This document shows positions 7,853 through 26,628 of a DNA stretch of 64,000 bases, piece after piece. The stretch's first letter is position 1. Every line of letters begins with the position of its first letter. Below the pieces are notes generated by a model, which saw only the letters and a list, made by a program, of their open reading frames with translations, made no database searches and was not told the DNA's origin. This stretch comes from Lachnospiraceae bacterium MC2017 (GTDB taxonomy: Bacteria; Bacillota; Clostridia; Lachnospirales; Lachnospiraceae), in assembly GCA_000701625.1 (NCBI GenBank), contig JNJK01000008.1:62001-126000 (forward strand). Reading direction: 5' to 3'. The position numbers and the translations under genes were made by a program.

Positions 7853-7853
7853 G

Positions 7854-9134
7854 TCAATTTTTTGTACCTAGCAGATAATCAATAAACTGCTCGGCAGTTC
7901 TTCCGCTCATTCCGCCGTGCGAAAGCTCCCACTTATTTGCCTCAAGGAGAAGTTCTTTCTCAGGCATATTTATGCCGCGTCTCTCAGCTATAGTCTTTAC
8001 TATCGTTTCAAATTCCTTTTTCATAGGTCTGCCAAAATAAATGGTGACTCCAAATCGGGCAGAAAGAGAGAGTTTCTCCTGTACCGTATCACTTTCATGA
8101 ATATCATCATTATCCCTGCGGTCAAGTCTGTCTGAGAAACCTTCGTGAACCAGATGTCTCCTGTTTGATGTCGCATAGATAAGGATATTATCAGGTTTCT
8201 TTTCCAGTCCTCCCTCTATGACAGCCTTTAAGTATTTGTACTCTGTTTCCGTATCTTCAAATGACAGATCATCCATATAAAGGATAAATTTATAATTACG
8301 GCTCTTTACCTGTCGTATAACATCATTAAGATCCTGGAACTGATGCTTGTAAACCTCGATCACTCTGAGGCCATCATCAAAATATTGGTTAAGGATTCCC
8401 TTTATACACGAGGATTTTCCTGTTCCCGCATCGCCGAAAAGAAGGACATTATTTGCCGGACGGCCTGCAAGAAATGCCTCAGTGTTTTCAATAAGCTTCT
8501 GCTTCTGAGATTCCATTCCAACGATATCAGAAAGTTTTGCATGTTTAACTCTGGAGATGGGTTCTATTTCTACCCTGTCATCTGCCGTATGACGGATACG
8601 AAATGCCTTATGCATTCCAAAAGATCCGACACCAAAATCACGATAGAAATCTGTCATCCCCTTCAGGAATTCATTTTCGTCCTTAGCTTCTCCAAGTTTT
8701 TCCGAGAGTTCCACGATCCTGTCTCTGATACGGCGATTGAAAACTACTCCATCATCAAGGGCCGGCTCATATCCTTCCAGAAATGAAAAGCAGGCAGTTC
8801 CCATGATCTTTCCGAGCGGTCCGAACTTCCATCCAAACATCTCCCGAAAGATCTCTGCGTCATGCTTTGCCGCCTCGTACAGCGTCCCGCTTACCTCTCC
8901 TCTTTTCTCAGATGCCAGGGTAAAACTGTTTTCATGCTCAAGTATCAGGAGTGAAAGAAAGCATCTCCACAGATTTCCGGAAAAGCCATATTCCGCTGCC
9001 AGTTCCAGAATCCTGTTCACAACTGACGATGCCAGCGACAGATCCTTCTCCGCACCTTCATACAGGCGTGACATATCCCGAAGGATATCCATGTGCTTCA
9101 TGTTTCTATACAGTAACAATTCCTCGTATTTCAT
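7854..9134 (-). CDS. DUF815-family ATP-binding protein
   Basis: A 426-residue protein with an AAA-type ATPase in its second half. Walker A is GDAGTGKSS at about residue 240 and the Walker B-like acid pair is in LYMDDLSFED near residue 290. ATSNRRHLV is a sensor-1-like segment, and RLDRRDNDD resembles the arginine-rich region of the family. The first 200 residues are helical and not recognisable. This matches the DUF815 family common in Firmicutes, whose function is unknown. It sits between pheA and ppx with gaps of 42 and 65 bases, and no functional partner is suggested by context. Confidence 0.83.
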   Translation of the reverse strand: MKYEELLLYRNMKHMDILRDMSRLYEGAEKDLSLASSVVNRILELAAEYGFSGNLWRCFLSLLILEHENSFTLASEKRGEVSGTLYEAAKHDAEIFREMFGWKFGPLGKIMGTACFSFLEGYEPALDDGVVFNRRIRDRIVELSEKLGEAKDENEFLKGMTDFYRDFGVGSFGMHKAFRIRHTADDRVEIEPISRVKHAKLSDIVGMESQKQKLIENTEAFLAGRPANNVLLFGDAGTGKSSCIKGILNQYFDDGLRVIEVYKHQFQDLNDVIRQVKSRNYKFILYMDDLSFEDTETEYKYLKAVIEGGLEKKPDNILIYATSNRRHLVHEGFSDRLDRRDNDDIHESDTVQEKLSLSARFGVTIYFGRPMKKEFETIVKTIAERRGINMPEKELLLEANKWELSHGGMSGRTAEQFIDYLLGTKN

Positions 9135-10360: not shown

Positions 10361-10507
10361 CGTTTTGAAGTTATATTTGGCCTTAAACAGTAACCTTTAG
10401 TTTTTTTCTTTTTCTTCCGATAAAAAAACTGATAGGGGTTTATGTTTTTGCTGAGTAGTAACTGTTCTGGATACTTACGTTTTTTCTTACAGATATCGGG
10501 GGTCAGT

Positions 10508-11515
10508 ATGAAAAAGAGCAATATTCTGTTTTTGATCATTCTATCAGCTTTAATCATAGCACTCGGTGTTTTTCGCTTTATGAGCAATCATGTCGCGGAA
10601 AATCCGGTCGGAACTGTCGGGAATACTCCCGGAAATCTGTATAATAAGGGCATGGTATGCGAATATGATGGTTACGTCTATTTCCATAATTATACTGACC
10701 AGGGTACTCTCTACCGTATGAAACCTAACGAAACCGAACCCAAGCAGATCATCAAAGAGAGTGTTGCCTATATTAATGCTGCCGGAAAATATGTCTACTA
10801 TTATCAGAATCATGATAATAACTCCGGTGCCGACCTTGCATTCCTTAGCCGCAACCTTGGTATTTATCGTTCTACTCTTAAAGGAAAAAACACTATTTGC
10901 CTGCAGAAAGCCCCGGTTACTACCGTTGCTTTGATCAACAGCGACGTTTATTACCAGTACTTCGATGACACTTATGGTCTGAACCTTTATAAGAAACACA
11001 TCGACAACACCAAAGAAGAACAGATCACCGATGAACCTGTTCCGCCCCTCTGCCCAGTGAACAACGTGATCTACTATGCAAAGCAGGTCGGCGATCACAA
11101 TCTGTGCTCTCTTAATATCACTAATGGCTCTACAAGTACTGTTTTTAATGGAAATATCTGGAATCCGATCGTTACAGGCGGATATGTTTATTACATGAAT
11201 AATCTCGATGATTACGCCTTGTACCGCAGGAAACTCGGTGATGTGAATGAAGAAAAACTCACTGATGACAGGATCGACTGCTACAACGTTGTAAACAACA
11301 GCTGGATCTACTATCAGAGCAATTCTACTATCGATCCCGCGGTCAAGCGTATGCACGTCGATGGCAGCGAAAACGAAGTCGTTATGAGAGGTAACTATAC
11401 AGAAATAAATGCTTCATCAATGTACGTATATTTCCGCCCGTTTGATAATGAGACTATGGTATATCACCAGCTGATCAACGGACCGGTGAATCCGCAGACA
11501 TTTATTGTGAAGTGA
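10508..11515 (+). CDS. DUF5050-like exported or membrane-anchored beta-propeller protein
   Basis: A 335-residue protein starting MKKSNILFLIILSALIIALG, an N-terminal signal-anchor helix, followed by an extracellular domain. The domain has repeated units of the form G-x-VYYYxN-[ND]-x-x-x-[LY]YR, for example GYVYYMNNLDDYALYRRKLGD, spaced about 45 residues apart. This is typical of DUF5050 domains thought to form beta-propellers. I chose the ATG at 10508 because GGGGG sits 5 bases upstream and it begins the signal sequence; the upstream ATG at 10442 has no good ribosome site. It is one of the few plus-strand genes and converges on the restriction island. Its function is unknown. Confidence 0.75.
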   Translation: MKKSNILFLIILSALIIALGVFRFMSNHVAENPVGTVGNTPGNLYNKGMVCEYDGYVYFHNYTDQGTLYRMKPNETEPKQIIKESVAYINAAGKYVYYYQNHDNNSGADLAFLSRNLGIYRSTLKGKNTICLQKAPVTTVALINSDVYYQYFDDTYGLNLYKKHIDNTKEEQITDEPVPPLCPVNNVIYYAKQVGDHNLCSLNITNGSTSTVFNGNIWNPIVTGGYVYYMNNLDDYALYRRKLGDVNEEKLTDDRIDCYNVVNNSWIYYQSNSTIDPAVKRMHVDGSENEVVMRGNYTEINASSMYVYFRPFDNETMVYHQLINGPVNPQTFIVK

Positions 11516-11527
11516 TTCTTTGACATA

Positions 11528-11730
11528 GTGACGGAAGCGGAGAGCGTTGTTTCCAACGCATCCCGATGAACCGCATTACGGTGAGCTAACTGCTTACTGC
11601 GACTAAGCACGCAGGACATTCGCTTTCGGGATCGCTCTTGCCCTGCGTGCTAAGTCTCCGTATGCAGTGGATCTCACCTATGCGGTTCTTTGACGGGATG
11701 CTTGTGGAAATCAACGCTCTCCGCTTCCTG
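11528..11730. repeat. 203-nt palindromic element, copy 1 (left edge of island)
   Basis: Almost the whole element is an imperfect inverted repeat. The arm at 11533-11613 pairs with the arm at 11641-11728, leaving a loop of about 25 bases. It lies between the convergent DUF5050 and helicase genes. The reverse complement aligns along its full length with copy 2 at 17713-17916, with scattered substitutions only. The core GCGATCCCGAAAG and the ends (GGAAGCGG...GTGAC type) are shared. There is no ORF or U-run, so it is neither a gene nor an ordinary terminator. It may be a foldback MITE, an island boundary or a long structured RNA. Confidence 0.85.
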
Positions 11731-11788
11731 ATTTTTTGAAAAATATGTCCACCCTAACCTATTTGGTCATAAGACATCTCTTTATGTT

Positions 11789-14700
11789 CTATCCAAATAT
11801 TTCATCAAGCTTTTCTTGTAGCTTTCCTTCTTTTGCGTAAGGCAATGCGTCAACTTGCCTAAAATTATGATTTTTTATGCTTACATCCTCATCAAATCCT
11901 AGTATATAACTTGTTGCAATTTTATAAATTATTTCAGTCGGCGCCAGTCCATACACCTGCTTCTCAAAAATATGCTTTAGTCGCTTATTTTTATCAGGAA
12001 ATTGTCTCTTTATCTCCTCACTCCGATATAGTCTTTTTACTATTTCCGTTATATACAGACCTGACTTCATATACAGATCTATAAATGTCTTGTCCTTATC
12101 ATCAAAACATCCAGGATTTTCTTCTTCAAGCATATCTACCATACGCTTCACAACATCCTTAGGTGTAAATATCTGATTCGTTTTCTGTGGTGGGATATAA
12201 TCAAATATATCTTCTACGCTTTTCTCGTCAAAATAATCTGCCAGTCTACGTTTGAGAGTCAAGAATTCCTTCACGGAATCATCAAATACAACCGAATCAA
12301 AAAGTTGCCCCTTAAATTCCTTCTCCTCACCCGTCTCAGAATCGGTATACTTACCTCCATCCCTAAGAAACCTGAACTGTTCCAACGTTATGCTGGTTAC
12401 TTCAAGGAAAACTTTATCTGGTATAACATTGTCAAAAGTTGCCAACGTGACTGTGTCATCACCATACGCCATGAGGAATGACGGTATCGTACGTGAAAAT
12501 CCTCTTAAATGATCTCTGATACCATCTTCTATGGTGTCACGTTCCCGCTCTTTGATCTTTGTTTCAACAGTTTTTACCGTATCCTGCATAGATTTTTTTG
12601 TAAACTCATCCACTACAGCATTAAGATTTACCTTTAGATTATCGTCAGCATCTTTCTGCTTCTTATCAAACTCTGCTTCTATCTCTTCTGTAGTTTTACC
12701 AGTCTCATGCCGTTTCTGCAGTTCCAGAGACCGTTCCTGTTCAATGATACTTTTTTCTATGTTATATTCAGCTACCGTCCTGTCGACCATTCGATCTGCA
12801 TCGTTTTTTAACCGGCTTTCAATTTGCCTCTTATCTGAAGCTTTCATGTTGTCACCGTAGTTTTCCTTTGTCGCATCCACGATATCTTTTACAATGGTTC
12901 CACTCAGATATTCCTTAAGCCGTTTATTAAGTGAATCTGGTTTAGAATTCTCTTCATGACGAACTTCAAAAACGATATCCTTCAGCTGCTCTTTGGCATT
13001 ATCAAATATCTTCTCACCGAAAACATCTGTGGTCTTTCCGATAACATAGCTATCAGGTAAATCAATCTCTCCATCTTCATTAAGATGTAATTCTTCTTTT
13101 ACTTCTTCAGAAAAGTTAATCTTTGAGGTCGGTTCTTCGATAGCTTCGAACTGCTCTATGATATCTATTACCTCTTTCGGCGCCGAGAAAACATTATTGA
13201 TATTTTGAAACAAAAAATTACTCATAAACCCGCGGCGAACAACCTCAACAGATTTAATTTTTCGCGGAATTGTAAGCACTTTTTCTGCATCAAGTTCCAC
13301 CAATTCTCCATGTTCATCCTCTCCTATAACAGGAAAGAAATTGAGCAATTCTCTTATGTTATCCTTTCTGGTCTCAACATCACCTCTGCCCGATGCCGTA
13401 TCAGAATACAGATCATTTGCAAATTCCTCAAAAATTATTAGCGTCCTTGCCGGATCAAAATCGAAAACATATGCATTCTCTTTTCGTCTAAATTCACTTC
13501 CACACTTAAAAAGGCAAGGATTCTGAGACCTAAAAGCTGCCTGCATATAAAGTGATGGTGACTTTACATTAGAAAGCATCAGAACCGCAGACCACTCCGG
13601 AATAGTAATACCAGTTGTAAGCTGACCTACCGAAAGTGTAATCGTCTTATCGTTTTCCTTTATAGCTTTAACAACACGGTCAAAGGATTTCATATTTTCA
13701 TCATCATCATCAATTTTGCCATCACCTACAGCGAGAACTAATTCATAATCCTTGAATACCGGATGATCTTTCAGTTTTTTATATAAAGCCCTTGCACTCT
13801 CTACTCTGTCGAGCAGCCAGAAAGTATGCTTCAACTCATCTCTAAGTTCTTTTGTTGAAAACGGATATTTATTCTGAAGTGTTAATGCATCAAGAAACTT
13901 ATCAACGGAGCTATCATGAATAAACCTTCCATTATTCGTTGCAAAGAACTCATTTAAGTCAAACGCGTATTCCTCCGTCTCACCCTGTATCTCAATTCCC
14001 TGAGATAACTCATCCTTTATAATTTCCGACATCTGATATGTATACAGATTCAGCTTTGGCAGATTAGCATATGGATTTTCTATTTCAGAGAAGCAATCCC
14101 AGTCACGCTTGATCTTCTGTTCATCAGCATATGTATAGTTAAAAATTGCATTTCTATCGAACTTATTATTTGCCAAAGCCTTGAACGGAGTTCCAGAAAG
14201 ATGAAGTGTGAACTTGCGCTTAATTCGCTCAAATGCTACATCTGTCTTATAAGTATCAACGCCTTCATGTGCTTCATCAATAACAAGAAGATCCCAGTCA
14301 ATAGTACTTAGTTCATGAAGTTTATTGAAATTACCACCAAAATATACAGAACCCTTTATATCTTGAAGAGATGCAAAGTAAATAAGCCCCATTGACATAG
14401 CGTTCATTCCATCAGTTTCCCGCTTCTTTTTATCATTTTCATATGTATCATAGCTGATCACCAGCGGTCTGTCCTTTATCCCATCAACATTACTTACAAA
14501 GAAATAACCTGATTCTCTACCAATAAATTTCGCATAATCCGAGTACCAGCTATTTGCTATAGCCGGTCTGTTAGTAACGATCAGGATTTTTTGCGCCCCT
14601 ATCCGTTTACAGAAATCATACACAGATAGTGTCTTTCCAAATCTCGGTTTAGCATTCCACAAATACTCCCCACCTTCATGAGTCTGCCTGTAACCTATAG

Positions 14701-15148
14701 TATCTGATACAGCTTTTTGCTGTTCCTGACGAAGGGAATACGGAACAATTACTCTCTGCTTCTGAACATTCCCACGATTAGAGCGAAATTCATTGAACAT
14801 GTACCTAGAATCCTGTGGCGAAATGCAGAACCACTCGTTTTTATCTTCCTCATCAAAAAATTTGTTTCCCATATCCTGCGGTTGCTTAACATCATTCTTT
14901 CGCAAATAAGCATGAAAGTCGTGATCAGTAAAACGCTCACCGGATCCGTCATCGAAAATGGCATTTCCAACCCATTCTTTTTGAGGTTTGATTCCTGCTG
15001 TATGTGTCTGTTGATAAATGCGGGTATCAACGTCCTGTTCGGTATATCCTATCTTAATATAACCGTCATGATACGTAATTCCAGGTGTAGTATAAGCATA
15101 AATCATTGGAACAACCGGTTTTGTGGATTTTATGTTAGGTTTGTTCAT
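11789..15148 (-). CDS. GIY-YIG-like nuclease + SF2 helicase + N-terminal half of an N6-adenine methyltransferase (restriction subunit)
   Basis: A 1119-residue fusion. Residues about 14 to 105 look like a GIY-YIG/T5orf172 nuclease (IYAYTTP, GYIKIGYT, a glutamate in ERFTDHDF). Residues about 137 to 600 are an SF2 helicase with YSLRQEQQKAV, motif I AKPRFGKT (166-173), DEAH (291-294), SGTPF and a motif V-like LTTGITIPEW. A long charged helical region follows. Residues 990 to 1119 hold methyltransferase motif X (FTPKDVVKRM), a changed motif I (FIDLYMKSG), motif II (VYGLAPTEI) and motif III (NFRQVDALPYA), and then the protein ends just where motif IV would follow. That half is the gene immediately upstream. 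The architecture recalls Type ISP enzymes. Target and activity are unknown. Confidence 0.82.
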   Translation of the reverse strand: MNKPNIKSTKPVVPMIYAYTTPGITYHDGYIKIGYTEQDVDTRIYQQTHTAGIKPQKEWVGNAIFDDGSGERFTDHDFHAYLRKNDVKQPQDMGNKFFDEEDKNEWFCISPQDSRYMFNEFRSNRGNVQKQRVIVPYSLRQEQQKAVSDTIGYRQTHEGGEYLWNAKPRFGKTLSVYDFCKRIGAQKILIVTNRPAIANSWYSDYAKFIGRESGYFFVSNVDGIKDRPLVISYDTYENDKKKRETDGMNAMSMGLIYFASLQDIKGSVYFGGNFNKLHELSTIDWDLLVIDEAHEGVDTYKTDVAFERIKRKFTLHLSGTPFKALANNKFDRNAIFNYTYADEQKIKRDWDCFSEIENPYANLPKLNLYTYQMSEIIKDELSQGIEIQGETEEYAFDLNEFFATNNGRFIHDSSVDKFLDALTLQNKYPFSTKELRDELKHTFWLLDRVESARALYKKLKDHPVFKDYELVLAVGDGKIDDDDENMKSFDRVVKAIKENDKTITLSVGQLTTGITIPEWSAVLMLSNVKSPSLYMQAAFRSQNPCLFKCGSEFRRKENAYVFDFDPARTLIIFEEFANDLYSDTASGRGDVETRKDNIRELLNFFPVIGEDEHGELVELDAEKVLTIPRKIKSVEVVRRGFMSNFLFQNINNVFSAPKEVIDIIEQFEAIEEPTSKINFSEEVKEELHLNEDGEIDLPDSYVIGKTTDVFGEKIFDNAKEQLKDIVFEVRHEENSKPDSLNKRLKEYLSGTIVKDIVDATKENYGDNMKASDKRQIESRLKNDADRMVDRTVAEYNIEKSIIEQERSLELQKRHETGKTTEEIEAEFDKKQKDADDNLKVNLNAVVDEFTKKSMQDTVKTVETKIKERERDTIEDGIRDHLRGFSRTIPSFLMAYGDDTVTLATFDNVIPDKVFLEVTSITLEQFRFLRDGGKYTDSETGEEKEFKGQLFDSVVFDDSVKEFLTLKRRLADYFDEKSVEDIFDYIPPQKTNQIFTPKDVVKRMVDMLEEENPGCFDDKDKTFIDLYMKSGLYITEIVKRLYRSEEIKRQFPDKNKRLKHIFEKQVYGLAPTEIIYKIATSYILGFDEDVSIKNHNFRQVDALPYAKEGKLQEKLDEIFG

Positions 15149-15149
15149 C

Positions 15150-16223
15150 TTAATTCTTGCTCCCTCTTAAATTATCAATAACGCCTCTTATATAAGCAAT
15201 TTCTTCATCAGACAGATCTATCATAGCGAATAGTTGTTTATCTAAATCAATGTTGAAATCTATGATTCCATTATCTGATTTGTAATTCTTTATATCAGGT
15301 ACCATAAGACCAAGAGAAGTTAACGCCTCATCTGTCATCAAAAAAGCGTACCTAATCAAATAGGTTTTTGCATACTCATAGAAATTTTTTGCCTCTTCAT
15401 ACGTTTTGAATGACCTCAACGCGACCCTTGCCCGTCCATAAGCAGAATGATTATCTATGATTTCTATTTGGTTATCTCTTTTTTGTCCCCCTGCATTTGC
15501 GCTTGAAACAACTACTTGAAACTCATCGATATATTCAGCTTTATTCTTTATCACACTTCTATTTGCGATAAACCATTTTGCGCGTCCTGCTTTTCCTGCT
15601 TTGTCATTTGTAAGCAATTTTATTTCTTGATCGTAGTCAACTATTTCCGATTCATTATATTGTCTTACTAAATCCGGGTGTTTTTCAACAAAATCACTTT
15701 CTATTCCAAAAAGTGATCGAGGTAAAATTGCATCATGAAGAAACTCAATTTTATATTTACTTACAAATCTCTTTATCTTCTTTGTAATTGATACGTCATT
15801 CGGATTTAATGGAACTAAATCATCCCCGGGATTTTCCGTATATATTTGTTTTATATTGCCGTTATGGGCATATACATAATTGAAACCTTCTGTAGTTTTA
15901 TCCTGCCTTTTTGTAACGATAGTAATTCCATCCGCCAAATCTGCTGCTCTCCCAAACACTTCCTTCGCATCCGGAAAAAATTCAACCGTGGATAATCGAT
16001 GGTCATTTATTAACTCTTTTCCGAACTGCTTTAACCCTTTTCCCGACTGATGCATCCATCTTCCGCCTGGATAAATCATTACTGTACTTTCACGTGCTAT
16101 CTCATCAGCTTGTATTTGAAAGTAATGAAAAATATTTTTTCTTGGAGCCTGACCATTTTTAGATGATTTATTTTCAGACTCTTCCTGATAGGGCGGATTC
16201 CCAATCACATAATCAAACTTCAT
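15150..16223 (-). CDS. Eco57I-like methyltransferase half with motif IV (NPPY) and target-recognition region
   Basis: A 357-residue protein that begins directly with FDYVIGNPPYQ, so the catalytic NPPY motif is at residues 9 to 12. There is no room for motifs X and I before it. Later regions (TVMIYPGGRWM, ADLADGITIVTKR, then a 200-residue tail) fit the C-terminal half and target-recognition part of gamma-class N6-adenine methyltransferases. I chose the ATG at 16223 because AAGGAG lies 7 bases upstream; the longer frame to 16295 would run through an operator palindrome. It ends one base before the nuclease-helicase gene, whose C-terminus supplies the missing motifs. The two proteins probably form one active site. 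Confidence 0.82.
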   Translation of the reverse strand: MKFDYVIGNPPYQEESENKSSKNGQAPRKNIFHYFQIQADEIARESTVMIYPGGRWMHQSGKGLKQFGKELINDHRLSTVEFFPDAKEVFGRAADLADGITIVTKRQDKTTEGFNYVYAHNGNIKQIYTENPGDDLVPLNPNDVSITKKIKRFVSKYKIEFLHDAILPRSLFGIESDFVEKHPDLVRQYNESEIVDYDQEIKLLTNDKAGKAGRAKWFIANRSVIKNKAEYIDEFQVVVSSANAGGQKRDNQIEIIDNHSAYGRARVALRSFKTYEEAKNFYEYAKTYLIRYAFLMTDEALTSLGLMVPDIKNYKSDNGIIDFNIDLDKQLFAMIDLSDEEIAYIRGVIDNLRGSKN

Positions 16224-16236
16224 TTTCATGCTCCTT

Positions 16237-16255
16237 TGACATTCACCGAATGTCA
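16237..16255. promoter_or_regulatory. Operator palindrome 1 (methyltransferase 5' leader)
   Basis: TGACATTCACCGAATGTCA is a perfect inverted repeat of TGACATTC around a short centre. It sits directly against the ribosome site of the methyltransferase gene, so a bound regulator would block elongation or initiation. It is one of three near-identical sites. Confidence 0.72.
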
Positions 16256-16300
16256 TTTTTTTAAAAAAATATTCCCTGAGAAGGGAACAAACCATTATTT

Positions 16301-16319
16301 TGACATTCAGTGAATGTCA
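16301..16319. promoter_or_regulatory. Operator palindrome 2 (transcription start region)
   Basis: TGACATTCAGTGAATGTCA is a near-perfect palindrome. It covers the expected start point of the minus-strand methyltransferase promoter. A TTGACA hexamer at 16300-16305, overlapping the site, may serve as the -35 of the plus-strand regulator gene with a weak -10 (TATCCT) 18 bases on. Confidence 0.72.
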
Positions 16320-16330
16320 TATTTATCCTA

Positions 16331-16359
16331 AATATATAGCAAAATAAATCCCGTGACAA
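16331..16359 (-). promoter_or_regulatory. Sigma-A type promoter of the methyltransferase-helicase operon
   Basis: Reading the minus strand, TTGTCA (-35) and TATATT (-10) are 17 bases apart. The -35 box lies inside operator 3 and the start point falls in operator 2, so the operon should be under direct control of the neighbouring XRE protein. Confidence 0.55.
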
Positions 16360-16372
16360 TCAGTGAATGTCA
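16354..16372. promoter_or_regulatory. Operator palindrome 3 (upstream of the XRE gene)
   Basis: TGACAATCAGTGAATGTCA differs from operator 2 at a single base. It ends 13 bases before the regulator start codon and next to its GGGGTGA ribosome site, which suggests autoregulation as in controller proteins of restriction-modification systems. Confidence 0.72.
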
Positions 16373-16385
16373 CGGGGTGAATAAT

Positions 16386-16634
16386 ATGTTTATTAATAAA
16401 TCAAAATGTGGAAAAAATAATATCTGTGGAGATATGGTAAAAAGGTATCGGATAAATATGGATATTTCCCAAAGAGAACTTGCCGATATGCTTCAAGTCA
16501 CTGGACTTGATGTTGATAAAAATGCTATCCAACGGATCGAATGTGGAAAGCGGTTTGTCACTGATATAGAATTGAAAGCTCTTATAAAAGTTTTGAACTG
16601 TAATTATAACGATTTATTAAATAACGCTGATTAA
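16386..16634 (+). CDS. Small XRE-family regulator, controller (C) protein-like
   Basis: An 82-residue protein, nearly all of it one HTH_3 domain: VKRYRINMDISQRELADML (helices 1 and 2), the recognition helix around DKNAIQRIECGKRF, then ALIKVLNCNYNDLL. The size fits C proteins of restriction-modification operons. I chose the ATG at 16386, preceded by GGGGTGA; an upstream GTG would start inside an operator. It is divergent from the methyltransferase-helicase pair and convergent with the other methylase-like gene, from which it is separated by 7 bases. Three 19-bp palindromes surround its promoter region. It likely times methylation against restriction after entry into a new host. Confidence 0.8.
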   Translation: MFINKSKCGKNNICGDMVKRYRINMDISQRELADMLQVTGLDVDKNAIQRIECGKRFVTDIELKALIKVLNCNYNDLLNNAD

Positions 16635-16641
16635 AATCTTA

Positions 16642-17568
16642 TCATCCTTTCCTCAGACTGCTGTATGTTATAGATTCATTGCTTCTCCAGTCATATACTT
16701 TACAATTTAAAGACTCCGGTTCGGTATCATTAATTCCGACCGCAAAATCAAATAGACTCATTTGATGATACTCTTCCTGCGGCTTTCCGAAAGGAACTGT
16801 TCCGGTGATTCCATCCATTTGCCAAAAATTCCAAACAATAATATTAGTCACTTTTCTTAGTTCATCATCACTCGGATTCCTATTCCAACGATCATTCATA
16901 TACTCAACAAATGTTATAAGAAGATTAATACGGGCTATTAACAGGTTATCTCCTTGAAACTCGTATCCATAAACGCTTTGATAAGCCCGGATCGTCCATT
17001 TGATCCAATCTTTTTCGCTGTCAGTATTCTCATTAATAATACGCAGCTTACGGTCCAGAATGCCAATTCTCTGATTCACAGGAATTCTCTCTCCAGTTGC
17101 CGCATCATACCTCGATACAATATATGGTGCTTCACCACATGTTATTTCCAGACGTCTTGAATCTACATACTTTTTCCAATCCTCTTTTTTATTGAAAGAT
17201 ACCGGTTCCGTCGTTGTTTCCCAAGCATGCTCTTTCTCTATATTGAAAACATCTTCTCTTCCAAACCACTCTGCATCACAGTGGTTATTCATCTTATTAC
17301 AAATCCATGACGGAGTGAATACCTCAGCCTTTTTTCGAGTTCTTTCATTCTGTTCTTCCGCAGTTTTGCTAACCCTCGGCTGTATTTCGCACGAATCAAA
17401 ACCCTGAAGCAAATAAGGAGTGATCTGTGTCTTCGCAGTTATATTATGCTTTGATCCACTATATGCATCTGTTGCAAAAATAATATTGCATTTTGTTGTC
17501 TTGTCTTTAAGAAGCATCGGTAGCATATCTTTCACCGGATATTCATTAATATTAATCAGCTCTTGCAA
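16642..17568 (-). CDS. Methyltransferase-like subunit with motifs X and I only (restriction subunit M-like)
   Basis: A 308-residue protein. FTPSWICNKM at 84-93 resembles motif X, LEITCGEAPY at 140-149 a motif I SAM loop, GYEFQGDNLLIARINLL at 201-217 motif II, and NFWQMDG at 247-253 a motif III-like segment. No NPPY or DPPY catalytic motif is present, so alone it should not methylate. It may pair with the NPPY-bearing protein as an alternative SAM-binding half, or be a DNA-binding or regulatory subunit. The start is a TTG at 17568, 7 bases after AGGAG. It converges on the XRE gene and has its own upstream region next to palindromic copy 2. Confidence 0.68.
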   Translation of the reverse strand: MQELININEYPVKDMLPMLLKDKTTKCNIIFATDAYSGSKHNITAKTQITPYLLQGFDSCEIQPRVSKTAEEQNERTRKKAEVFTPSWICNKMNNHCDAEWFGREDVFNIEKEHAWETTTEPVSFNKKEDWKKYVDSRRLEITCGEAPYIVSRYDAATGERIPVNQRIGILDRKLRIINENTDSEKDWIKWTIRAYQSVYGYEFQGDNLLIARINLLITFVEYMNDRWNRNPSDDELRKVTNIIVWNFWQMDGITGTVPFGKPQEEYHQMSLFDFAVGINDTEPESLNCKVYDWRSNESITYSSLRKG

Positions 17569-17712
17569 TAGTCGTCTCCTTTTTATGATTTATATCAGTT
17601 ACTTCATAATAACCTCTTAGTGTTCTCAATTGTACAGCTTTAATAAACGGTTGTCATTCCAAGGATCATGTTTTTTATTAGTGCTTCACAATTAGCCAAC
17701 TTACAACGCAGT

Positions 17713-17916
17713 CAGGAAACGGCGAGCGCTGATTTCCATAAGTATCCCGTAGAAGAACCGTACAGGTGAGATAACTGCATACGAAGACTTAGCACGCAGG
17801 GCAAGAGCGATCCCGAAAGTGAATGCCCTGCCTGCTTATGTCGCAGTAAGCAGTTAGCTCACCGTCGTATCGGTCCATCGGGATGCGTTGGAAACAACGT
17901 TCGCCGTTTCCGTCAC
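17713..17916. repeat. 204-nt palindromic element, copy 2 (right edge of island)
   Basis: The inverse-oriented partner of the element at 11528-11730. The arms 17713-17801 and 17826-17916 pair over nearly their whole length around a loop holding AGCGATCCCGAAAG. Aligned with the reverse complement of copy 1 it shows mostly isolated substitutions, many of them placed in stems. It lies between pyrI and the methylase-like gene. The rest of the 566-base gap (17569-17712 and 17917-18060) shows no gene or clear signal apart from the terminator near 18061. Confidence 0.85.
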
Positions 17917-18135: not shown

Positions 18136-18606
18136 TTATTTTCTCGTATTCTGATTTACCCATTCTGTTTCGCAGTATTTGCATCTATATGTACCACGTT
18201 CCGGATCAGTGAGATAAAATACGTGATCAAGTTCCTGCTCGATCGATGTGATACATCTGGGGTTATGACACTTTATGACATTTGTGATAGTCTTTGGCAG
18301 CTCCAGACGAGGACGCTCGATTATCTCACCATCCTTGATGATGTCAACTGTCGCTCTGTGATCAAGGAATGCGATGGTATCGAGATCGTACTCACGAAGA
18401 GGCATCTCGACTTTAATCATATCCTTCTTTCCCATCTTCATACTGAAAGCATTTGTAATGATAGCAACACTGCACTCCAGTTTATCAAGTCCCAGATCAT
18501 TATAGATCTTCATGGCGCGACCGGGATGAATATGATCGATAACGAAACCTTCTTCGATCTTTCCGACGTTTAGTTTATATTGCTTACGCTTTTCTGTTTC
18601 TGACAT
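18136..18606 (-). CDS. pyrI: Aspartate carbamoyltransferase regulatory chain
   Basis: A 156-residue PyrI. The nucleotide-binding domain has VGKIEEGFVIDHIHPGRA at the front, and the C-terminal zinc domain shows the four cysteines as CHNPRC and CKYC about 30 residues apart. It binds CTP/ATP and converts the PyrB trimer into an allosteric holoenzyme. I set the start at 18606, 5 bases after GGAGG; an in-frame TTG 12 bases upstream overlaps that site. It lies 24 bases after pyrB in a two-gene operon. The stand-alone pyrBI pair away from the other pyr genes is common in Clostridia. Confidence 0.95.
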   Translation of the reverse strand: MSETEKRKQYKLNVGKIEEGFVIDHIHPGRAMKIYNDLGLDKLECSVAIITNAFSMKMGKKDMIKVEMPLREYDLDTIAFLDHRATVDIIKDGEIIERPRLELPKTITNVIKCHNPRCITSIEQELDHVFYLTDPERGTYRCKYCETEWVNQNTRK

Positions 18607-18630
18607 GTCGTCCTCCAATCATATGATAAA

Positions 18631-26271: not shown

Positions 26272-26628
26272 TTCTTTTCAGGCAGACCTGTAAGCCGGGT
26301 TCTGTATTAGATGATCATCTTTCTAGGACGTATGTTGCCATACGCCTCAAGCAACCTACCTGAAAGCAGATCGGGCAAATCTATTGCTTTCTGTTTGGTC
26401 TTGCTTCGGATAGGGCTTGCAATGCGCCCCCTGTTACCAGTTGACCGGTGGTCTCTTACACCACCATTTCGCTATGACCTGTGACGGCAAGCCGTCCATC
26501 GGCTACATATTTTCTGTTGCGCTATCCCGTGGGTTACCCCAGCCGGCCGTTAGCCGGTATCCTGCCCTGCGAAGCCCGGACTTTCCTCCCGCGGATAAAT
26601 CCACCGGCGATCATCTGGCCTGCCTGAA
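26272..26628 (-). ncRNA. rnpB: RNase P RNA, bacterial class A
   Basis: The catalytic RNA of RNase P, which trims tRNA 5' ends. The universal 5' core GAGGAAAGTCCGGGC is at about 26574-26588 and the 3' core ACAGAACCCGGCTTACAGG at about 26287-26305. TTCAGGCAG at the 5' end pairs with CTGCCTGAA at the 3' end to form P1. GATAGCGCAACAGAAA and GGTGGTGTAAGAGACCACC are further conserved parts. Ends are set from P1 and from the promoter, so they may be off by a few bases. Open frames inside this interval are not genes. Confidence 0.96.

Follow-up and report, generated by a model that had tools for sequence, protein, structure and literature searches.

Repetitive extragenic palindrome (REP) and bacterial interspersed mosaic element (BIME) repeats are tagged hairpins of intergenic DNA that are dispersed, often occur as inverted pairs and are thought to be non-autonomous mobile elements, according to the available sections of two published accounts (PMC3733652; PMC2817692). 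In this study, we examined a window of Lachnospiraceae bacterium MC2017 (the whole stretch of 64,000 nucleotides, positions 62001-126000 of contig 7 of its 4.26-Mb genome, G000), in which a restriction-modification island lies between two copies of a hairpin repeat that we call P1. As far as those sections describe the GTAG-tagged REPs and their REP-associated tyrosine transposases (RAYTs), P1 resembles the REPs in its tag at one end, its hairpin, its intergenic position, its inverted pairs and its dispersal. However, these REPs are 20-40 bp long, whereas P1 has a length of about 203 nt (about 196 nt for the hairpin) and carries a TGAC tag; furthermore, ten RAYT-like loci of the genus were not flanked by P1 or by a second palindrome, P2, described below. 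REPs tagged with CGTC form a class without a known dedicated transposase; their stems measure 8-9 bp and their loops 4-5 nt, and the tail is CCA in most of them (PMC3733652, available sections). The P1 end reads CCGTCA on the other strand and is similar in this respect, whereas P1 is several times longer and has a TGA tail, and neither the short stem and loop nor the CCA tail was found in it. The strings "clostridi" and "lachno" do not occur in the main text of PMC3733652.

The ERIC/YPAL-type palindromes of enterobacteria are long, intergenic and mobile repeats resembling miniature inverted-repeat transposable elements (MITEs), in the sections available of PMC2759123 and PMC3733652. P1 is likewise long, intergenic and mobile, whereas the host group differs; this comparison was made by description, not by sequence. 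We take ERIC and YPAL to be the repeats named RU-1 (127 bp) and RU-2 (168 bp). P1 resembles a MITE in being dispersed, non-coding and present or absent between relatives, whereas no target-site duplication was found. In addition, the relatives of P1 keep the inner core and vary in the outer stems, whereas in a MITE the terminal repeats are the constant part. A single insertion sequence (IS) was found linked to a P1-type hairpin, an ISLre2-family element of genome G032; the hairpin lies in its interior, and the ends of the IS are different. REPs with RAYTs and the IS200/IS605 elements are handled as single-stranded hairpins. P1 shares with them the tag at one end, the lack of a detected target duplication and the retention of the fold rather than of the outer sequence. 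The attC cassettes of integrons offer an analogy, since there too cargo lies between structured palindromes with conserved imperfections and a cargo-less relative keeps one of them; however, P1 copies may be inverted, and the attC core motif was not recognised at the P1 ends. No description of the P1 hairpin family was found in the open-licence literature, among the matches listed.

First, we examined the two copies in the window (Table 1). The folding energy of copy 1 was -120.8 kcal/mol as compared with -64.35 kcal/mol for shuffled sequences (z -11.3), and that of copy 2 was -105 kcal/mol as compared with -64.83 kcal/mol (z -9.8); none of 200 shuffles was as good in either case. In a repeat search, the copies matched each other in three inverted segments of 65, 61 and 47 nt with 94, 85 and 91% complementarity, which covered most of both, and GTGAC (copy 1) and GTCAC (copy 2) formed the outward ends on the two sides of the block. 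The preliminary description of this DNA had reported two near-complete hairpins in inverted orientation with partly stem-preserving differences, and both observations were borne out. Thus, 25 of the 198 alignment columns differed between the copies. Among the 62 consensus pairs, 53 were unchanged, four had changed on both sides with pairing in both copies, two had changed on one side and were still paired in both, and three with one-sided changes were not paired in both. A covariance model of the P1 core, built from 28 copies, detected copy 1 with an E value of 1e-31 and copy 2 with 3e-28, both also weakly on the opposite strand, and it found no further match in the whole 64-kb window at E values up to 1. 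Rfam gave no match to either copy at the gathering threshold.

The same fold was observed across the family. In 27 full-length P1 copies, 96.2% of cells were paired, and the covariation that the preliminary description had named as a check was found as two-sided changes, at least one for each of 38 of the 62 pairs. Double-changed cells numbered 125, as compared with 23.2 after shuffling (0 of 500 shuffles as high) and 16-25 when the partners were slid, and the inner core was conserved and polarised. The P1 hairpin fold is maintained by paired changes across copies, and this conservation fits RNA, single-stranded DNA or correction from arm to arm as its cause alike. If the hairpins served to insulate the island, or were retained as terminators or as ends that stabilise mRNA, pairing would be under RNA selection. 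The strong compensatory change and the polarised inner core agree with such a functional RNA or transcription barrier, as do the many P1 copies directly behind the end of a reading frame. However, Rfam returned just two chance-level matches for six loci even at E values up to 5, the copies have no fixed neighbour genes, and some are mere remnants in a relative whose flanking genes stay intact. Moreover, templated correction between the arms of a palindrome could keep the pairing without selection. We consider a role of this kind quite improbable as the explanation.

Subsequently, the distribution of P1 was examined. By BLAST, P1 was found in 7 of 61 genomes (own included), all within the genus, and in none of 24 genomes of other families. 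The search of other genomes raised in the preliminary description was extended with the core covariance model, which gave matches in 19 of the 48 genomes of the genus, own included. P1 occupies eight distinct places in G000, five in G014, which is a sister species, and at least 17 in G066; it is not tied to one gene, and the eight dispersed places speak against a fixed feature of one gene's 3' end. In the other species examined, the inner core was kept, and the outer stems had a different sequence yet were still paired. No match to P1 was obtained in phages and plasmids by distant BLAST or in viral contigs with exact patterns. In one case (L034, 2470-2702 on contig 2 of G014), P1 stands where G000 has the end and terminator of a gene named beta-glucosidase-like from its sequence, and the G014 frame appears to run into the hairpin.

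The ends of P1 were sharp. In the orientation of copy 1, TGAC and CTG were found in 20 of 20 copies each, G before TGAC in 14 and A after CTG in 16; these counts are partly built in, as the end pattern (at most one mismatch), passed by 25 of 34 loci, itself demands such an end, and they leave out nine partial or rearranged loci or loci with no clear end (L099, L103-L110) and five orthologues removed thereafter. Beyond the P1-bearing clade, TGAC...TGA was a minority form: among 19 copies with automatically called ends (five further loci were too short), it occurred in L299 (G062) and L313 (G006), a near-rule end (TGG) occurred in L301 (G032), and the other 16 lacked it. A second G062 copy (L331, first match) shows TGAC...TGA by eye. 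Flanking repeats of 2-9 nt were no commoner than in shuffled flanks for 25 boundary choices in 20 copies, in a test that is blind to target duplications surviving in just one or two copies.

P1 frequently occurs together with P2: 11 of 25 P1 copies have P2, whole or in part, on their upstream side. P2 gave 17 matches in G000, 14 in each of G014 and G066, and four in G009; no match was obtained in six other genomes of the genus. Among the matches listed, 13 of 23 aligned P2 sequences start with (G/T)TGACG, the remaining ones are incomplete or altered at that end, and most finish with CTG as P1 does. Where P2 is followed by an inverted P1, the two make up a composite whose outward ends are TGAC-like; some neighbouring P1 and P2 pairs are in the same orientation.

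Comparison of syntenic sites showed that the hairpins come and go between species. The P2-P1 composite was present in G066 and absent from G000, G014 and G009, and P2 was present at a site on C3 of G014 and absent from G000. Since a hairpin is present in one species and missing from another at syntenic sites, the hairpin itself is therefore mobile, and we hold it very probable that P1 is a mobile, dispersed and non-coding hairpin repeat. Accordingly, the foldback mobile element suggested in the preliminary description stands as regards a mobile hairpin, with eight dispersed copies that differ between sister species. When the joined flanks of six G066 sites were searched, one site (the P2-P1 composite, beside a tRNA) had a match spanning the join in each of G000, G014 and G009, two were matched on one side only and three gave no match. 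At C6:31852, the relatives hold instead a gene pair named nucleotidyltransferase/HEPN-like from its sequence, so the comparison is not clean; at most, it hints that the target may supply TGAC. Here G000 (L013, about 7853-8062) has P1 and only the end of the pair that is found in G014 and G009 (L185/L186). A third palindromic repeat of about 146 bp lies nearby (L013, 7592-7737, contig 6 of G000); it is found in G000 and G009, not in G014, with several matches in G032, and its empty site suggests a TA target duplication.

Differences in cargo were also observed. At C3 of G000, 870 bp of cargo lie between P1 and a P1 remnant, and G014 has one P1 there without the cargo. At C1:140k, G009 has one P2 and lacks a surface-protein-like gene and the second P2. 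At C16, the left flank is common to G000 and G014, and the DNA past P2 differs.

We then compared the window locus with its relatives. A pyrI match was found in 11 of 12 relatives searched, five of which also had a DUF5050 match in the stretch covered. In the outgroups G032 and G064, the stop codons of DUF5050 and pyrI abut with nothing between them; hence, the whole block of hairpin, island and hairpin is read as an insertion between these genes, and the hairpins as marking the boundary of the island, which was one of the possibilities raised at the outset. In G067, another gene lies between DUF5050 and pyrI, and in G062 and G065 the gene order differs. In G066, DUF5050 was not in the stretch covered, and P1 was not beside pyrI among the matches listed. 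In G014, copy 1 (99% identity) is followed by the spacer and by the final 75-85 nt of the restriction gene, in the same orientation as in G000; the end of pyrI comes directly afterwards. The tail of the restriction gene left in G014 therefore points to the former presence and later deletion of the island, and of copy 2 as well if this was already there. In G009, an assembly with 75% completeness, 32 nt are left, in which 27 nt from the outside of copy 1 run at GTTTCC into the outer end of copy 2; this remnant is compatible with a former island or with none. Thus, neither of the two cassette-less relatives compared holds both copies: G014 keeps one and G009 a remnant. Deletions between short repeats are a typical outcome of unstable palindromes. 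The P1 remnant at C3 in G000 has a shape similar to that of the 32-nt remnant, and another internal P1 deletion was found at a TTTCC repeat in G009 (C100).

The kinship of the bracketing copies was also analysed. Copies 1 and 2 formed a clade with the G014 orthologue of copy 1 (ultrafast bootstrap, UFBoot, 96), and copy 2 was closest to copy 1 (88.7% identity). Their grouping in the tree indicates that they are probably not two unrelated insertions. The inverted P2 pair around accessory genes at C16 consisted of sisters (support 96) that were 96.9% identical over shared columns, the left copy being incomplete. The inverted P2 pair around accessory genes at C1:140k formed a clade with the single G009 copy (support 97), to which the left copy was nearest. 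A direct pair at C39 formed a clade with one G014 copy (support 96), in a region that is segmentally repeated and whose right flank was not comparable. Another direct pair, at C2:153k, was mutually nearest by identity (98.3%) and had no supported clade of its own. The alternative that two independent P1 copies flank the island by chance, as REP- or MITE-type repeats gather in variable intergenic space, is consistent with the position of P1: 17 of 25 copies overlap no frame of at least 120 codons, and a crude frame-based count placed only 2 of 24 classified copies between divergent genes. Stable solo copies are also common. However, the tree places copies 1 and 2 together and apart from all other copies, and other cargo-bracketing pairs behave likewise, which is unexpected for unrelated insertions; we regard chance flanking as unlikely.

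PADLOC and domain annotation of the window agreed with the earlier view of a restriction-like cassette between the hairpins and ordinary genes outside (Table 1). The small helix-turn-helix (HTH) protein of the HTH_3 family is the probable controller of the island. Three GACATTC-NNN-GAATGTC dyads, where 0.36 were expected and one of 100 shuffles reached three, are likely candidate operators of this protein. Outside the block, the window also contains a bacterial RNase P class A RNA gene (26275-26626, minus strand).

Table 1 Features at the hairpin-bracketed locus (window coordinates).
Feature	Position	Strand	Remarks
DUF5050 gene, left neighbour	10442-11515	+	Converges on pyrI
P1 copy 1	11528-11731	+	GTGAC tag 11528-11532; hairpin 11533-11728; TGA tail 11729-11731
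Restriction-modification island between the hairpins	11732-17711		About 6.0 kb; absent from G009 and, apart from about 140 nt next to copy 1, from G014
Restriction protein, 1119 aa	11789-15148	-	GIY-YIG T5orf172 domain and ResIII helicase/translocase
Eco57I-type N6 methylase	15150-16295	-	First ATG of the frame probably lies upstream of the true start
Three GACATTC-NNN-GAATGTC dyads	16238-16371		Around the start of the HTH frame, between the methylase and HTH genes
Small HTH_3 protein	16353-16634	+	Domain search
Type II methyltransferase	16642-17568	-	PADLOC MTase_II, E 4e-108; relatives at 61 GTDB loci
P1 copy 2, inverted	17712-17916	-	TCA 17712-17714; hairpin 17715-17911; GTCAC 17912-17916
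pyrI, right neighbour	18136-18618	-	pyrB lies on the same side

The type II methyltransferase (MTase) gene was found in two of the 48 genomes of the genus, the other 46 giving no match at E 1e-20, and its relatives at the 61 GTDB loci belong to bacteria of several phyla and one archaeon; the island was therefore probably acquired from outside, as far as this distribution tells. The P1 core was found by the covariance model neither at any of the 61 GTDB loci, many of which end at contig ends, nor at the second MTase copy of the genus (L333). BLAST with P1 and P2 was likewise negative at all 61, several of which are just 3-8 kb long. Any palindrome of at least 100 nt was seen at two of the 61 loci, in a weak scan that missed copy 2 of the window. 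The restriction system as the bearer of the hairpins was rejected on the basis of these 61 loci, many of them cut short, in which the P1 core was not found.

These results also bear on the main rival explanation, a composite foldback transposon in which P1, cargo and inverted P1 move as one unit bounded by GTGAC...GTCAC with an enzyme acting in trans. Related inverted repeats at both ends that group in the tree, GTGAC and GTCAC as the outer ends on both sides, the empty site in two outgroups and the G009 remnant, which consists of exactly the two outer ends, all agree with such a unit. However, no second site of the unit was found: the MTase gene is rare in the genus, and the P1 core was found neither in L333 nor at the 61 GTDB loci, of which many are incomplete at contig ends. 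Neighbour pairs in the same orientation exist, and no target duplication was found. The part of the preliminary suggestion in which the cassette itself moves as a unit was accordingly not demonstrated, and we regard this explanation as doubtful. The preliminary description had also considered an inversion switch, in which recombination between the inverted copies, which have long identical stretches in common, would flip the island. No recombinase was recognised among the four island genes by domain and PADLOC annotation. None of the relatives examined showed an inverted cassette, and in G014, which alone among them retains part of the island, this part lies in the same orientation as in G000. 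We consider a switch extremely improbable. As P1 is palindromic, a second copy may take either orientation, and the inverted arrangement therefore needs no switch.

The search for a mobilising enzyme covered Y1-type transposases (PF01797) and no other transposase or recombinase family, and it linked no transposase to P1. Matches to PF01797 were obtained in 24 of the 48 genomes of the genus. The RAYT-like label was given by PF01797 score and length, without a RAYT-specific model; the P1-bearing genomes G000, G066, G030 and G012 have no long, low-scoring match (about 40-59 bits) of this kind. BLAST of the ten RAYT-like loci with P1 and P2 gave one 19-nt chance match. Four of them (L279, L281, L283 and L278) adjoin hairpins of a different GGGGACGG type, and these genes and their own GGGGACGG-type hairpins are best read as a separate REPtron-like system. 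A RAYT was rejected as the mobiliser of P1, as the ten RAYT-like loci have no P1 or P2 beside them and no match of this kind occurs in these four P1-bearing genomes.

In G032, an ISLre2-family IS of 2366 bp is present in six near-identical copies (L317-L322, contig 1) with 9-bp target duplications, and a P1-type hairpin lies inside its 3' non-coding part. The ends of the IS differ from the P1 ends and its target duplications are 9 bp long; the hairpin therefore looks like a passenger that hitch-hikes on this recently active IS. For the same reasons, together with the internal position of the hairpin, ISLre2 was rejected as the parent of P1.

Taken together, we propose that P1 is a REP/MITE-like mobile hairpin, non-autonomous and locally duplicated where cargo docks, and we give this account an even chance of being correct. 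An enzyme acting in trans on the single-stranded hairpin beside TGAC would spread P1. A resident hairpin would be a spot where repair or recombination joins accessory DNA, the hairpin would be duplicated during the joining so that the cargo becomes bracketed, and the cargo would be lost again through short repeats.

Several observations weigh against this proposal. The enzyme search, limited as described above to one transposase type, identified no candidate. At base resolution, none of the insertions could be set against a clean empty site, and the clearest P2 gain (G014, C3) has about 18 unexplained extra bases. Several P1 and P2 copies are stable orthologues without a difference in cargo. 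The loci were compared with one or two relatives each, and the cases are few, were found while viewing the repeats and have no matched hairpin-free intergenic control. By plain identity, copy 1 is nearer to several other copies, among them one of G014 (92.8%) and C1:124k (91.2%), than to copy 2; therefore, copy 2 would have changed faster, and the grouping of copies 1 and 2 rests on the tree. The P1 copies C1:118k and C1:124k, with similar spacing around genes common with G009, did not group, nor did L092 and L093 of G066, which are inverted and 11 kb apart and whose bracketed content was not compared. Where flanking copies do group, this could reflect gene conversion or plain local duplication. 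Finally, the G014 junction shares AAATT, by reading of the alignment, and in our reading the loss of the island there probably ran through this microhomology and not through the hairpins.

A bolder version of the proposal, which we judge decidedly unlikely, would treat P1 as part of a genus-wide family of giant hairpins with a fixed core and varying complementary outer stems that serves orientation-blind docking of cargo and is integron-like in effect. The sites would be hairpins of 200 nt, TGAC-tagged in at least part of the family, and an enzyme using the single-stranded hairpin would capture genes beside a resident copy, the duplicated hairpin on the far side lying either way round.

Large palindromes are normally unstable in bacteria. 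The genus keeps and spreads hairpins of 200 nt, with the pairing preserved while the outer sequence shifts between species. A defined target for searches is set by the sharp ends and fixed core of the hairpin, together with the missing enzyme. If the pattern of local duplication holds in more strains, it would offer a concrete explanation for the gain and loss of defence islands and surface genes at non-coding repeats.

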